From: a virus
IMG/VR virus record: IMGVR_UViG_3300025420_000016
Span: 1 to 31,408 of that record
DNA: 31,408 bases
Strand: one strand, 5' to 3'
Shown here: positions 1,832 through 4,146 of the stretch, piece by piece
Layout of the letters: each line of letters opens with the position of its first letter
How positions within the stretch are numbered: position 1 is the first letter of the stretch
Made by a program: the position numbers and the translations under genes
The notes under the pieces: model-generated
The model's database searches: none
Told to the model about the DNA's origin: nothing
What the model saw: the letters and a program-made list of their open reading frames with translations, nothing else

Positions 1832-1855
1832 TAGTTAGGAAATGTCTGTTAAGAC
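1832..1855 (-). promoter_or_regulatory. Early leader element, degenerate copy E (hairpin + TCCTAACTA)
   Basis: Read on the minus strand, a 4-bp hairpin (GTCT-TAAC-AGAC, 1855-1844) is followed by ATTTCCTAACTA. This matches the core CCTAACT of the elements upstream of four other early genes. It lies 20 bases before the ATG at 1811. This is the weakest copy: the stem is short and only the core of the motif is kept. Confidence 0.4.
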
Positions 1856-1883
1856 GATGTGATGATAACATTAGATGATTAGT

Positions 1884-2126
1884 CTAAGATAAATTATTTT
1901 CTCCTTTGTTGTTTAAATGTGAAAGGGGTTCTAGTCCAGCCATCAGGACCACCAGGTTACACAGCTCTTCCCTGAACCCTGCAGCGTCTACCTCTAGTTC
2001 TATTTGTTTACGATAGCGTTTGATTAGTAGCTCCACCTCTTTATGTCTGTACGCTACCTCTATGTCCATATCTTTACGATACTTTCGCCTAAGTTCTTCT
2101 CTACGTTTCAGTAATAGTTCTATCAT
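1884..2126 (-). CDS. Hypothetical coiled-coil protein
   Basis: This 80-residue protein is dominated by charged helical sequence. It opens MIELLLKRREELRRKYRK and continues with a heptad-like run, and a hydrophobic segment near residues 55-66 (LCNLVVLMAGLEPL) breaks the helix. No family is recognised. An AAGGAGGG box lies about 7 bases upstream of the ATG, making the start firm. The gene overlaps the stop of the preceding gene (2123-2350) by four bases and so is probably coupled to it. It lies between the origin-like region and the recombination cassette. Confidence 0.65.
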   Translation of the reverse strand: MIELLLKRREELRRKYRKDMDIEVAYRHKEVELLIKRYRKQIELEVDAAGFREELCNLVVLMAGLEPLSHLNNKGENNLS

Positions 2127-2350
2127 TCTCTACCCTCCTTAATTAAGTCCCCAACTGTCTTGGGTATTGATTTATAGGTCCAAAACCAAAAGTCTACCGA
2201 TAAAGTAGACTGCCTACACGTACGCTCAACGTACTCCAGCCACCTATGGTCATGGGGTCCTACCTCTACGGGATACCATGCAAACCACTTATGGGGCTTA
2301 CTTAGTCTTTCTACTTTTTCTAAATGGGTCTCCCCAAAATCTATCTTCAT
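2123..2350 (-). CDS. Small hypothetical protein, first gene left of the origin-like region
   Basis: This 75-residue protein is not recognised. It is unusually rich in tryptophan and other aromatics (WFAWYPVEVG, HRWLEYVE, VDFWFWTYKS) and has a basic-acidic C-terminus. It is the first gene on the left side of the iteron region and therefore the first to be transcribed from any promoter there. The ribosome-binding site is weak (AAGAAAGTAGAAC before the ATG). It overlaps the next gene by an ATGA junction. Confidence 0.6.
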   Translation of the reverse strand: MKIDFGETHLEKVERLSKPHKWFAWYPVEVGPHDHRWLEYVERTCRQSTLSVDFWFWTYKSIPKTVGDLIKEGRE

Positions 2351-2405
2351 GTTCTACTTTCTTAAGTTTAAGTCTACTACATACTATATATAATATATGT
2401 ATGTC

Positions 2406-2543
2406 TCTATATTGAACCTCTATATTGAGTTTTCTATATTGAGTTTCTATATTGAGACTTCTATATAGAGTTTTCAATATAGAGACCTCAATACAATTTT
2501 ACTCAATACATCTTCCTGTATATATATATTCCCTCAATATTGA
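2406..2543. repeat. Iteron array: 10-bp TCTATATTGA units spaced 13-14 bp
   Basis: Four exact direct copies of TCTATATTGA begin at 2406, 2419, 2433 and 2446. A palindromic variant TCTATATAGA follows at 2460, then an exact inverted copy TCAATATAGA at 2474. Degenerate TCAATAC units follow at 2488 and 2503, and a palindrome TCAATATTGA at 2534. From 2406 to 2474 the spacing alternates between 13 and 14 bp. Regularly spaced short direct repeats in a non-coding AT-rich region beside a DnaA box are typical of an iteron-type replication origin. A cluster of operator sites for a phage regulator is the main alternative. Confidence 0.75.
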
Positions 2544-2544
2544 G

Positions 2545-2571
2545 TAATTATTAATCTATGATTAATAATTA
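2545..2571. repeat. Perfect 12-bp AT-rich inverted repeat
   Basis: TAATTATTAATC (2545-2556) and its exact reverse complement GATTAATAATTA (2560-2571) are separated by only three bases. The repeat sits between the iteron array and the DnaA box. It could form a cruciform, mark the easily melted part of an origin, or bind a dimeric protein. Confidence 0.7.
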
Positions 2572-2597
2572 GGAATGCATATATGGTCAATCTAGCC

Positions 2598-2606
2598 TGT
2601 GGATAA
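2598..2606 (-). other. DnaA box (perfect consensus)
   Basis: The plus strand reads TGTGGATAA, the exact complement of the bacterial DnaA box TTATCCACA. A single perfect box could occur by chance, but its place 55 bp from the iterons and 27 bp from the AT-rich inverted repeat makes a role in replication initiation by host DnaA plausible. Confidence 0.6.
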
Positions 2607-2756
2607 CTTTATAAGGCTTTATAGGCATTATTTTTATTACCCACACTTACCCCTTACCCAGCCCCCAAAAGGGGCGCAGGGGTTGTTTTAAGGGGTTTAT
2701 TGGGACAATTGACACATAGGGGCTTCAGGCTCTGACAAACCCCCAGTTGTTCGCAC

Positions 2757-2936
2757 TTACTCATCATGTTCTATACGGGTTAACTCAATTACGAAAAACA
2801 CCAGCATGATAAGAAAACCTAGGGATAACCCCATAGTGTCCCCTTTAGATAAATTCTCTAAGAATAAATCATTTACCAATAAAAACAGACTAGCAGCGCA
2901 TATGCAAACGCCAAATGTATAAAAATAATATTTCAT
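2757..2936 (-). CDS. Small two-helix membrane protein
   Basis: A 59-residue reading frame begins at the ATG 2936-2934 and ends at TAA 2759-2757. Two strongly hydrophobic stretches are visible, at about residues 4-21 (YFYTFGVCICAASLFLL) and 35-53 (MGLSLGFLIMLVFFVIEL), joined by a short polar loop; the tail ends RIEHDE. It therefore looks like a two-pass inner-membrane protein. A perfect GGAGG box lies about 4 bases upstream, and the ATG overlaps the TGA of the preceding gene (ATGA), both strong signs that it is translated. Early expression argues against a classical holin. Superinfection exclusion or membrane targeting of replication are guesses. Confidence 0.7.
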   Translation of the reverse strand: MKYYFYTFGVCICAASLFLLVNDLFLENLSKGDTMGLSLGFLIMLVFFVIELTRIEHDE

Positions 2937-3115
2937 GCTACCTCCAATTCTCTAACAAATGAAACATAAGCCTCATGAACTGACCTACCCAATTCAATCA
3001 ACACTCTAGCCTCATTAGTTGAAATTCCCCTATGTTCGGCAAATACGTCAACGGTCAAATAGTTATTGAACCAGTCTAAAAACTCAGATTGTAGAAACGC
3101 TTGAGTATTACTCAT
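2933..3115 (-). CDS. Small hypothetical early protein
   Basis: This 60-residue protein is not recognised. It is acidic to neutral and mostly helical, starting MSNTQAFLQSEFLDWF. The frame could open at 3127 (MRYFMSN), but I chose the ATG at 3115 because a GAGGT box lies six bases before it. The shared early leader motif (3128-3137) lies 12 bases upstream of this start. The gene ends in an ATGA overlap with the membrane protein at 2757-2936, so the two are probably co-translated. Confidence 0.6.
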   Translation of the reverse strand: MSNTQAFLQSEFLDWFNNYLTVDVFAEHRGISTNEARVLIELGRSVHEAYVSFVRELEVA

Positions 3116-3127
3116 AAAATACCTCAT

Positions 3128-3154
3128 AAGTTAGGATAGATGCAAAATAGCATC
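3128..3154 (-). promoter_or_regulatory. Early leader element copy A (hairpin + ATCCTAACTT)
   Basis: On the minus strand a hairpin GATGC-TATTTT-GCATC (3154-3139) is followed by TATCCTAACTT (3138-3128), then the GAGGT ribosome-binding site and the ATG at 3115. The same order of hairpin, motif, GAGG box and ATG recurs at 3503-3536 and 4079-4111. Confidence 0.6.
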
Positions 3155-3157
3155 CCC

Positions 3158-3185
3158 TAGAAGCCTCATAGAAGCCCCTAGAAGC
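3158..3185. repeat. Three TAGAAGC direct repeats at helical spacing
   Basis: TAGAAGC occurs at 3158-3164, 3169-3175 and 3179-3185, with start-to-start distances of 11 and 10 bp. The array lies between the stop of the gene at 3192-3488 and leader copy A. Sites one helical turn apart would face the same side of the DNA, as expected for cooperative protein binding. Slippage-type duplication is an alternative. Confidence 0.45.
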
Positions 3186-3191
3186 TATTAT

Positions 3192-3488
3192 TTAAGCAGT
3201 CTGTAACATTTCCTCTTGAGCAAAGCAAATGCCGTCTAAATAGGCGTTAATTAAATCGTATAGATGCCTTTTAGTAGTGTGGTAACTGATTATTGGTGTA
3301 CGGCATCCACCATGTTCATTACACATTCTGTGTACGCATACTCCTCCATAAGCGTAGGACAAGTGGAAATTGCCCACATTAGCAACATTCCTGCCATCAA
3401 TGTGTGAATATGGTTTGCTAGGTGAGTTGGTTAACTCATTCAGTCTCTGTACTCTGTTTTCTAGCATTTTGTCTGTGATTCTGTCCAT
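3192..3488 (-). CDS. Hypothetical early protein
   Basis: This 98-residue protein is not recognised. It starts MDRITDKMLENRVQRLNEL, a helical segment. The middle is rich in Tyr, Gly, His and Cys (SYAYGGVCVHRMCNEHGG), where two Cys and two His lie within about 12 residues and could bind a metal. The C-terminus is helical again. GAGG lies 8 bases before the ATG, preceded by leader copy B (3503-3536). The neighbours are other small early genes, each with its own leader, unlike the tightly overlapping genes left of 2350. Confidence 0.6.
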   Translation of the reverse strand: MDRITDKMLENRVQRLNELTNSPSKPYSHIDGRNVANVGNFHLSYAYGGVCVHRMCNEHGGCRTPIISYHTTKRHLYDLINAYLDGICFAQEEMLQTA

Positions 3489-3502
3489 GATAAAACCTCA
3501 TT

Positions 3503-3536
3503 AAGTTAGGATTAAAAAGATACGCTAAAACGTATC
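3503..3536 (-). promoter_or_regulatory. Early leader element copy B (hairpin + TTAATCCTAACTT)
   Basis: On the minus strand a 6-bp hairpin GATACG-TTTTAG-CGTATC (3536-3519) is followed by TTTTTAATCCTAACTT, then AATGAGG and the ATG at 3488. The hairpin with five T residues after it resembles a weak intrinsic terminator, so it could end the upstream message as well as mark the next leader. A second hairpin (ATAGCC/GGCTAT, 3539-3559) lies just upstream of it. Confidence 0.6.
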
Positions 3537-3569
3537 GCATAGCCCCCATAAGAGGCTATACGCTAGACT

Positions 3570-3767
3570 TTAAACCGTTACCGCCTCAATAGGCTTAGAA
3601 TCGGTACAAATACACACTATGCGCTTAAATTTCGGTGCATTCTCTAGCGTGTGAACCGTTATATTTCTACCCGTGTGCGTGTAGCTTTCAACCCTCATCT
3701 TTTCACCGTGTACAGTGATAATTTGACCAATTTTGTAGTTTCCCTTTGGTATAAATGCAAATTTCAT
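3570..3767 (-). CDS. Small basic beta-rich hypothetical early protein
   Basis: This 65-residue protein is not recognised. It opens MKFAFIPKGNYKIGQIITVH and alternates short hydrophobic strands with basic turns (GEKMRVESYTHTGRNITVHT), which suggests a small beta-barrel such as an SH3- or OB-like fold. Two cysteines (CIC) lie near the C-terminus. The ribosome-binding site is weak (GAAAG). A motif copy (3787-3799) lies 19 bases upstream, without a clear hairpin. I cannot assign a role. Confidence 0.55.
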   Translation of the reverse strand: MKFAFIPKGNYKIGQIITVHGEKMRVESYTHTGRNITVHTLENAPKFKRIVCICTDSKPIEAVTV

Positions 3768-3786
3768 GATAATTCTTTCGATGGTT

Positions 3787-3799
3787 AAATTAGGATTAA
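3787..3799 (-). promoter_or_regulatory. Early leader motif copy C (TTAATCCTAATTT)
   Basis: The minus strand reads TTAATCCTAATTT, one base different from copies B and D, in the 33-base gap before the gene at 3570-3767. No convincing hairpin precedes this copy, since the upstream gene's stop codon is immediately adjacent. Confidence 0.5.
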
Positions 3800-3800
3800 A

Positions 3801-4055
3801 TTAAATAAATGATTCGTCAAAAAAGTGTTGATGTATTTCTACTGTCTCACACATCAAGCCAGTTATCTCACACTTAAAGAAATCAGTACCTTCAAATGGC
3901 ATAAAGTCCCATATTGATTTATCCATGGTGTTATCTTTAAACCATGTATCTAAAAGAATAGATTCCTCATTAGTTAAACCAGAGTAGTCACCATTGACTA
4001 AAGCGCTCAAAAAATGAGAGCCGATAATGTACATATAAGAATTGTTTGTTTGCAT
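3801..4055 (-). CDS. First early gene: acidic hypothetical protein
   Basis: This 84-residue protein is not recognised. It is acidic and aromatic-rich (NEESILLDTWFKDNTMD, WDFMPFEGTDFF) and has two Cys (CEITGLMCE). It is the first gene downstream of the consensus promoter at 4119-4146 and is therefore probably among the first expressed on infection. Small acidic early phage proteins often interfere with host functions, but nothing in this sequence proves that here. The start is backed by an AGAGGT box about 5 bases upstream and by leader copy D. Confidence 0.6.
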   Translation of the reverse strand: MQTNNSYMYIIGSHFLSALVNGDYSGLTNEESILLDTWFKDNTMDKSIWDFMPFEGTDFFKCEITGLMCETVEIHQHFFDESFI

Positions 4056-4078
4056 ATTTACCTCTTAGGAGAAGATTT

Positions 4079-4111
4079 AAGTTAGGATTAACAGAGTTAT
4101 TAAGCTCTGTT
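4079..4111 (-). promoter_or_regulatory. Early leader element copy D (hairpin + TTAATCCTAACTT)
   Basis: On the minus strand a perfect 7-bp hairpin AACAGAG-CTTAATAA-CTCTGTT (4111-4090) runs directly into AATCCTAACTTAA. It lies just downstream of the promoter at 4119-4146, so the transcript should begin at or very near the hairpin. That places this element at the extreme 5' end of the early messenger RNA. Confidence 0.65.
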
Positions 4112-4118
4112 ACTATGT

Positions 4119-4146
4119 ATTATATATATATAAAAACCATTGTCAA
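4119..4146 (-). promoter_or_regulatory. Consensus sigma70 early promoter
   Basis: On the minus strand a perfect -35 box TTGACA (4146-4141) and a perfect -10 box TATAAT (4124-4119) are separated by 16 bases. The upstream flank is AT-rich with TTGAAAATA-type runs, like an UP element. It points into the early genes, and the start site is expected near 4112. This is the clearest promoter in the window and implies that the host RNA polymerase transcribes the early genes. Confidence 0.85.

Follow-up and report, generated by a model that had tools for sequence, protein, structure and literature searches.

A repeated hairpin-and-box leader in front of early genes of a freshwater phage and its environmental relatives

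The early module and its leaders

The window, meaning the whole 31,408-base stretch analysed here, is a virus record (IMGVR_UViG_3300025420_000016) of a freshwater phage. Its minus strand carries the early module, composed of small unknown proteins and a YqaJ/RecE-like exonuclease/recombinase (692–1591), and the structural genes are on the plus strand. Many small early genes of this phage and of distant relatives have in front of them a leader in which a single hairpin or two stacked ones are followed by a fixed CCUAACUU-type box and a ribosome-binding site. The hairpin next to the box is termed hp2 and the one upstream of it hp1. The features of the window are as follows.

4119–4146, minus strand: sigma70-type promoter TTGACA-16-TATAAT (12/12), predicted +1 at the first base of the 4089–4112 hairpin
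4089–4112, minus strand: hp2 of the first early gene leader, 8-bp stem, 8-nt loop, covarying in relatives
4079–4086, minus strand: box CCTAACTT in the leader of gene 3801–4055, part of AATCCTAACTT at 4079–4089
4061–4064, minus strand: Shine-Dalgarno (SD) sequence GAGG of gene 3801–4055
3787–3794, minus strand: degenerate box CCTAATTT before gene 3570–3767, without hairpin
3536–3562, minus strand: hp1, 12-bp stem, 3-nt loop, abutting hp2, with covariation
3519–3536, minus strand: hp2 GATACGTTTTAGCGTATC, 7-bp stem, 4-nt loop, then TTTTT, before gene 3192–3488
3503–3510, minus strand: box CCTAACTT before gene 3192–3488
3496–3499, minus strand: SD GAGG of gene 3192–3488
3154–3184, minus strand: hp1, 14 pairs including G-U, 3-nt loop, abutting hp2
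3138–3155, minus strand: hp2, 5–6 bp, loop TATTTT, best covariance-model match in the window
3128–3135, minus strand: box CCTAACTT before the gene starting at 3115
3122–3125, minus strand: SD GAGG of the gene ending at 2933, start ATG 3113–3115
1844–1855, minus strand: small hairpin GTC TTAACA GAC, degraded form of an 8-bp hairpin in orthologues
1833–1839, minus strand: degenerate box CCTAACT(A) before gene 1584–1811

The box copies lie on the minus strand where an earlier note on this DNA had placed them (TATCCTAACTT at 3128–3138, AATCCTAACTT at 3503–3513, AATCCTAATTT at 3787–3797 and AATCCTAACTT at 4079–4089), and the degenerate copy it reported near 1832 is present as TTTCCTAACTA at about 1832–1842. 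The exact 8-mer CCTAACTT occurs three times on the minus strand, each time in an early-gene leader, and never on the plus strand. Counting the 11-mer with up to two mismatches over the whole window yields 13 occurrences against 12.96 expected by chance from shuffles, so the evidence must come from position and from relatives. The non-random aspect of the motif within the window is its exactness combined with its position.

Two gene starts are clarified by the surrounding leaders. For the gene at 2933–3127, PHROG matches start at residue 8 or later, and the true start is most likely ATG 3113–3115, behind GAGG at 3122–3125, rather than the ATG at 3127. For gene 1584–1811, the ATG at 1811 is backed by orthologues, which show an undegraded hairpin followed by TTTCCTAACTT at this site.

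Small hairpins, previously noticed before four of the five copies, are present at 1844–1855, 3138–3155, 3519–3536 and 4089–4112, with none at the 3787 copy; the corresponding leader in relative L005 contains CCTAACTT, likewise without a hairpin. These hairpins are half of the module: the earlier note missed hp1 at 3536–3562 and 3154–3184 as well as the perfect promoter, which ends 6 nt before the 4089–4112 hairpin. Fold z-scores against shuffles are −3.3 for 3485–3580, −4.6 for 3110–3200 and −2.2 for 4053–4116, and the 1832 and 3787 copies fold no differently from shuffles. In terminator-like scoring, hp2 at 3519–3536 scores with its TTTTT, most other hp2 copies have no U-tract, and the score of hp1 is due only to T-rich hp2 loops.

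Box conservation in related contigs

Relatives were collected as environmental contigs from protein searches with two early proteins. The motif is present in front of early genes in many of these contigs, with up to six copies per contig. A pattern search for box, GAGG and ATG returned 33 stretches, among them many related contigs in which the box occurs again, several with two or three copies, against 10 contigs, all single-copy, for a scrambled-box control pattern. Across 11 related records and the isolate MEP301, box plus GAGG gave 30 matches versus three for the reversed pattern; the element was not found in MEP301 itself, an isolated phage related in one protein.

An unbiased 8-mer count over 412 distinct gene leaders ranks TCCTAACT first (37 leaders) and CCTAACTT second (35), against an average of 0.4 leaders for 560 permutations of the box letters; the antisense of the box 8-mers occurs in none of the 412. 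Both 8-mers remain on top among records found by homology only (13 and 11 of 210 leaders). None of the outcomes that the earlier note had named as refuting was obtained: the motif recurs in leaders of related phages, its stems covary, and its counts in leaders are far above controls. The two-mismatch count over the whole window, which equals chance, is uninformative.

Hairpin structure and covariation

The 36 nt before the box fold to a mean minimum free energy of −7.4 kcal/mol, compared with −4.4 in control leaders (p about 2e-9), corresponding to folding z-scores of −1.8 and −0.14. The arms of hp2 differ between copies, with 17 different 5-nt base-proximal arms among 21 hairpins and stems of 5–10 bp. 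When the left arm of one copy is combined with the right arm of another, 2.0 of 5 positions pair, compared with 5.0 in the native hairpins, a value partly set by their selection.

Both hairpins covary. In orthologous leaders of the first early gene, four of the eight hp2 pairs differ on both sides and 97.5% of cells are paired. In hp1, both sides vary in five of 11 pairs, and 100% of cells are paired; none of 500 shuffles reaches the covariation score in either case. The suspicion that the hairpin and its fixed box are under selection at the RNA level is supported by this covariation, by the folding controls and by conservation before unrelated genes.

What lies directly 5′ of hp2 follows a rule of two arrangements. 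In promoter-adjacent copies, the −10 hexamer ends 4–8 nt before hp2, so that hp2 begins at the predicted +1; perfect promoters are found in the window, L005, L022 and L035, with the hairpin 5–6 nt after the −10. Internal copies carry, in place of the promoter, a long hp1 (stems mostly 11–14 bp) abutting or nearly abutting hp2. Among 39 copies with hp2, a well-placed promoter was found for 15 and an hp1 for 16, compared with 35 and 81 of 1200 random hp2 positions. The alternation of promoter and hp1 at the same site suggests that both arrangements give the same RNA 5′ end.

Two sets of variant leaders were observed. In L008 (5289), L012 (5703), L033 (652), L037 (1752), L040 (4715) and L048 (4182), the hairpin GGGCTAAC..TAGCCC and its box apparently lie inside the frame of the upstream small gene, and a single stretch may serve there as both coding sequence and leader. 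In L012 (5335), L040 (4434) and L023 (2366), hp1 and hp2 are intact and the box is strongly altered (CCTTTTCCTAAGGGG, CCCTTTTCCTAAGAGG and ATTCACTAGCGGAGG); such natural variants are useful for separating hairpin function from box function. A MAFFT alignment of elements with mixed gaps put the stems in the wrong place and was discarded.

A second lineage of the leader

A family search with a 98-aa protein led to L129, from a distant second lineage, which carries three copies of hairpin, CCTAAACT and SD, and a pattern for the CCTAAACT form returned 47 stretches. Since this lineage was found by pattern, its box is subject to ascertainment; its hairpins, hp1 and promoters are free of it. The 39 distinct CCTAAACT contexts have a mean fold of −8.5, with 92% below −5. 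Four of the five outer hp2 pairs change on both sides, with 100% pairing. Among 36 copies with hp2, hp1 is present in 21, where it mostly shares one base with hp2, and four have a promoter; random positions gave 78 and 16 of 1310. The box lies 4 nt from hp2 in 21 of the 36, and the hp2-box distance varies less (standard deviation 1.7) than the box-SD distance (3.2).

A covariance model trained on the second lineage only finds, as its top three matches in the window, 3128–3154 (E 0.0023), 3519–3536 (0.12) and 1833–1855 (0.48), of which only the first is strong. Its top matches in the related contigs are again such leaders.

Modularity and genomic context

Leaders containing GATACGTTTTAGCGTATC are near-identical over about 85 nt before three unrelated protein families, and those with G(A/G)TGCTATTTTGCATC precede five. 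The leader is therefore conserved independently of the gene behind it. This is relevant to the question of how a tailed phage can express each of its many tiny early genes separately and exchange them.

Judged by terminase and capsid, MW202753 and MW202825 are the closest deposited relatives, and both are uncultivated. MW202825.1 (L192) is a structural-module relative of the window (capsid 86% and terminase 73% identical), in which no box copy with SD was found; given the similar capsid and terminase, this indicates that the early module was exchanged. A scan of genome collections for a clue to the host gave just two matches and was uninformative. Within the window, the AT-rich intergenic region at 2395–2571 contains repeated direct and inverted copies of CTATATTGAG/CTCAATATAGAG; it is iteron-like and possibly an origin or operator cluster.

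Proposed function of the leader

We tentatively favour a modular 5′ leader in which hp2 would cap the 5′ end of the mRNA, hp1 would cap the upstream message and the box would act in translation initiation or its control. At promoter-proximal copies, transcription would start at the first base of hp2, yielding an early mRNA with a blunt 5′-terminal stem-loop predicted to resist 5′-end-dependent decay. At internal copies, cleavage at the hp1/hp2 junction or close to it would give an upstream message that ends in hp1 and a downstream message that starts with hp2, so that the latter would have the 5′ end of a transcript made from the promoter. The CCUAACUU box, single-stranded and placed between hp2 and SD, may be a docking site for the translation machinery or a cooperating factor, and each small early gene would have an insulated and efficient start of its own. 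Should the box or the hairpin junction function in this way, the leader would be a portable, insulated expression part. Among the roles suggested in the earlier note, one in RNA processing or stability would fit the hp1-hp2 junction and the hairpins at +1. What is observed is the architecture, its covariation, the alternation of promoter and hp1, and the conservation across diverged phages and before unrelated genes; the RNA 5′ ends, the cut, the stabilisation and the role of the box are inferred.

Works cited in PMC3997798 establish for E. coli that 5′ stem-loops slow 5′-end-dependent decay and prolong mRNA life, and the stability of T4 gene 32 mRNA is attributed to a 5′ hairpin (PMC8948821). 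T7 gene 10 has an established A/U-rich enhancer where the box lies here, upstream of SD (PMC8748333).

Several observations weigh against this proposal. Some copies lack both hp1 and promoter, and a few have no hp2. The distance from hp2 to the box is about as tight as, or tighter than, that from the box to SD, suggesting that hp2 and the box, rather than the box and SD, form one recognition unit. Stems of 11–14 bp in hp1 are shorter than classical RNase III sites. No GTTAGG occurs in the E. coli rrnA operon, taken as a proxy for the host's, which makes a simple rRNA-pairing enhancer unlikely. Pairing of the box with its own SD (CCU/AGG) was considered and dropped, as it comprises 3 bp only across a long loop.

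Alternative readings and the anti-box RNA

The regulator-binding site suggested in the earlier note is possible, if rather unlikely: hp2 and the box would together be the operator of a trans-acting RNA-binding protein, from phage or host, that switches many early genes together. The nearly fixed hp2-box distance in the second lineage, where box-SD varies, agrees with this, as do the recurrence of the same site before unrelated genes and its position adjoining SD, where a bound protein would block ribosomes. RegA and RegB, which act on T4 early mRNAs, are precedents for shared control (PMC3014915), although the operator here would, unlike theirs, be a shaped site. However, the stem sequences are free to vary, so such a protein would read only shape and box, and a search of the early proteins, most of which have no match, revealed no RNA-binding domain.

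A second alternative, which we consider decidedly unlikely, is that the box is targeted by an RNA of the phage itself, encoded on the 3′ side of the early operon, whose AGUUAGGA would pair with all boxes. Window-clade relatives encode a structured RNA whose invariant RAGUUAGGAC lies between covarying stems and a pseudoknot; in most cases this RNA comes directly 3′ of a phage tRNA-Lys(TTT) gene. Eight pairs of its stems change on both sides (0/500 shuffles), and the exposed, single-stranded AGUUAGGA(C) is the exact complement of UCCUAACU, the window-clade box. This anti-box RNA lies on the early strand in the window-clade records examined, G003, MW202753 and seven second-lineage records; its region is outside the window. 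In MW202753, complementarity to two boxes reaches 10–11 nt. The RNA has no Rfam match even at a permissive E-value. Its positions in related contigs are as follows.

L005, 9074, plus strand: anti-box RNA
L009, 10955, plus strand: anti-box RNA
L041, 4037, minus strand: anti-box RNA
L057, 9329, minus strand: anti-box RNA
L060, 292, plus strand: anti-box RNA
L191, 27723, minus strand: anti-box RNA
L217, 16646, plus strand: anti-box RNA

These occurrences are mostly one homologous locus and count as one evolutionary observation. In L191 and several second-lineage records, AGTTAGGA overlaps the stop of the upstream open reading frame. The second-lineage boxes read CCUAAACU while the RNA stays AGUUAGGA; a compensatory change was sought there and not found. 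In the window clade, the RNA may have a cis partner instead, UUCUUAACUU in front of the next gene. Antisense control by the anti-box RNA is a lead, not a result. An RNA circuit, in which the hp1-hp2-box receivers of the early genes would be switched all at once by pairing with an accumulating pseudoknotted RNA that exposes AGUUAGGA, is improbable to the same degree. Should the box or the hairpin junction function as proposed above, the anti-box RNA would allow a direct test of whether a single RNA regulates an entire early programme.

An HNH-endonuclease-like gene lies directly behind the anti-box RNA in L061/L062 (G001) and L220 (G040), as if a homing gene had been inserted there; elsewhere, a glycosyltransferase-like gene takes this place.

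A nascent-RNA antitermination element for read-through of the early operon, like lambda nut or HK022 put, is very improbable. Two abutting hairpins recall put, and hp2 at 3519–3536 is followed by TTTTT and scores terminator-like. The third role suggested in the earlier note nevertheless fits poorly, because there is one copy per gene, directly 5′ of SD; promoter-proximal copies carry one hairpin only, the hairpin-then-box order is opposite to boxA-boxB in nut, and the U-tract after hp2 is not conserved. Finally, a purely DNA-level role of the shared leaders as homologous joints for gene swapping is hardly credible: near-identical leaders before three and five unrelated families and the recombinase encoded at 692–1591 would suit it, but compensatory changes in divergent stems, a strand-specific box and placement at +1 are unexpected for mere recombination homology.

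Comparison with known systems

The leader constitutes an apparently undescribed RNA family; dozens of environmental phage contigs carry it, and its geometry is precise and open to test. No Rfam 15 family matches it above the gathering score, where the only matches are tRNA in five sources, and no description of such a leader was found in the open-access literature.

Among known kinds of element, SAS/ESAS in mycobacteriophages of cluster K comes closest (PMC3203893, PMC12699233). This is a short asymmetric conserved box repeated just upstream of many start codons, often with a 5′ inverted repeat (PMC3203893); it is associated with genes of different families, and its function is unproven (PMC3203893, PMC12699233). 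As in SAS/ESAS, the exact copies in the window are confined to early-gene leaders immediately upstream of starts and lie outside the structural genes. The SAS has a 13-bp consensus, GGGATAGGAGCCC, whereas the box here is CCTAACTT or CCTAAACT and is separate from SD. The inverted repeats of ESAS are 17 bp with conserved arm sequence, whereas the stems here are 5–10 bp, free in sequence and covarying. The rule of a promoter at +1 or a second hairpin also sets the present element apart, and its host phages are unrelated and from freshwater. Since sequence and build differ, the element is not a member of SAS/ESAS.

The T7 gene 10 leader likewise has a 5′ hairpin followed by a short A/U-rich UUAACUUUA upstream of SD, with partly similar letters (UAACUU). 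It is a single copy, read by another polymerase, whereas the leader here is repeated and its box begins with CCU and has no complementarity to E. coli rRNA. The model of complementarity between the T7 enhancer and 16S rRNA is itself disputed (PMC8748333).

The T4 gene 32 leader and CUUCGG intergenic hairpins are mRNA-stabilising hairpins between phage genes with processing upstream, as is proposed for the element here. The hp2 loops, in contrast, are TTTTA, TATTTT, CTTAATAA and others, and the hairpin is coupled to a conserved box. The 5′-terminal stem-loops of the E. coli ompA and papA mRNAs, reportedly described by Emory, Bouvet and Belasco, have their hairpin at the very 5′ end, the position that promoter prediction gives for hp2 in the promoter-proximal copies. 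These are host genes without a repeated box and without a tandem hairpin at internal sites.

Lambda nut differs in that the order here is hairpin then box, and the box is unlike boxA. HK022 put consists of two adjacent stem-loops near the early promoter that act in cis on RNA polymerase; the leader described here carries two adjacent hairpins at its internal copies and one at its promoter copies.

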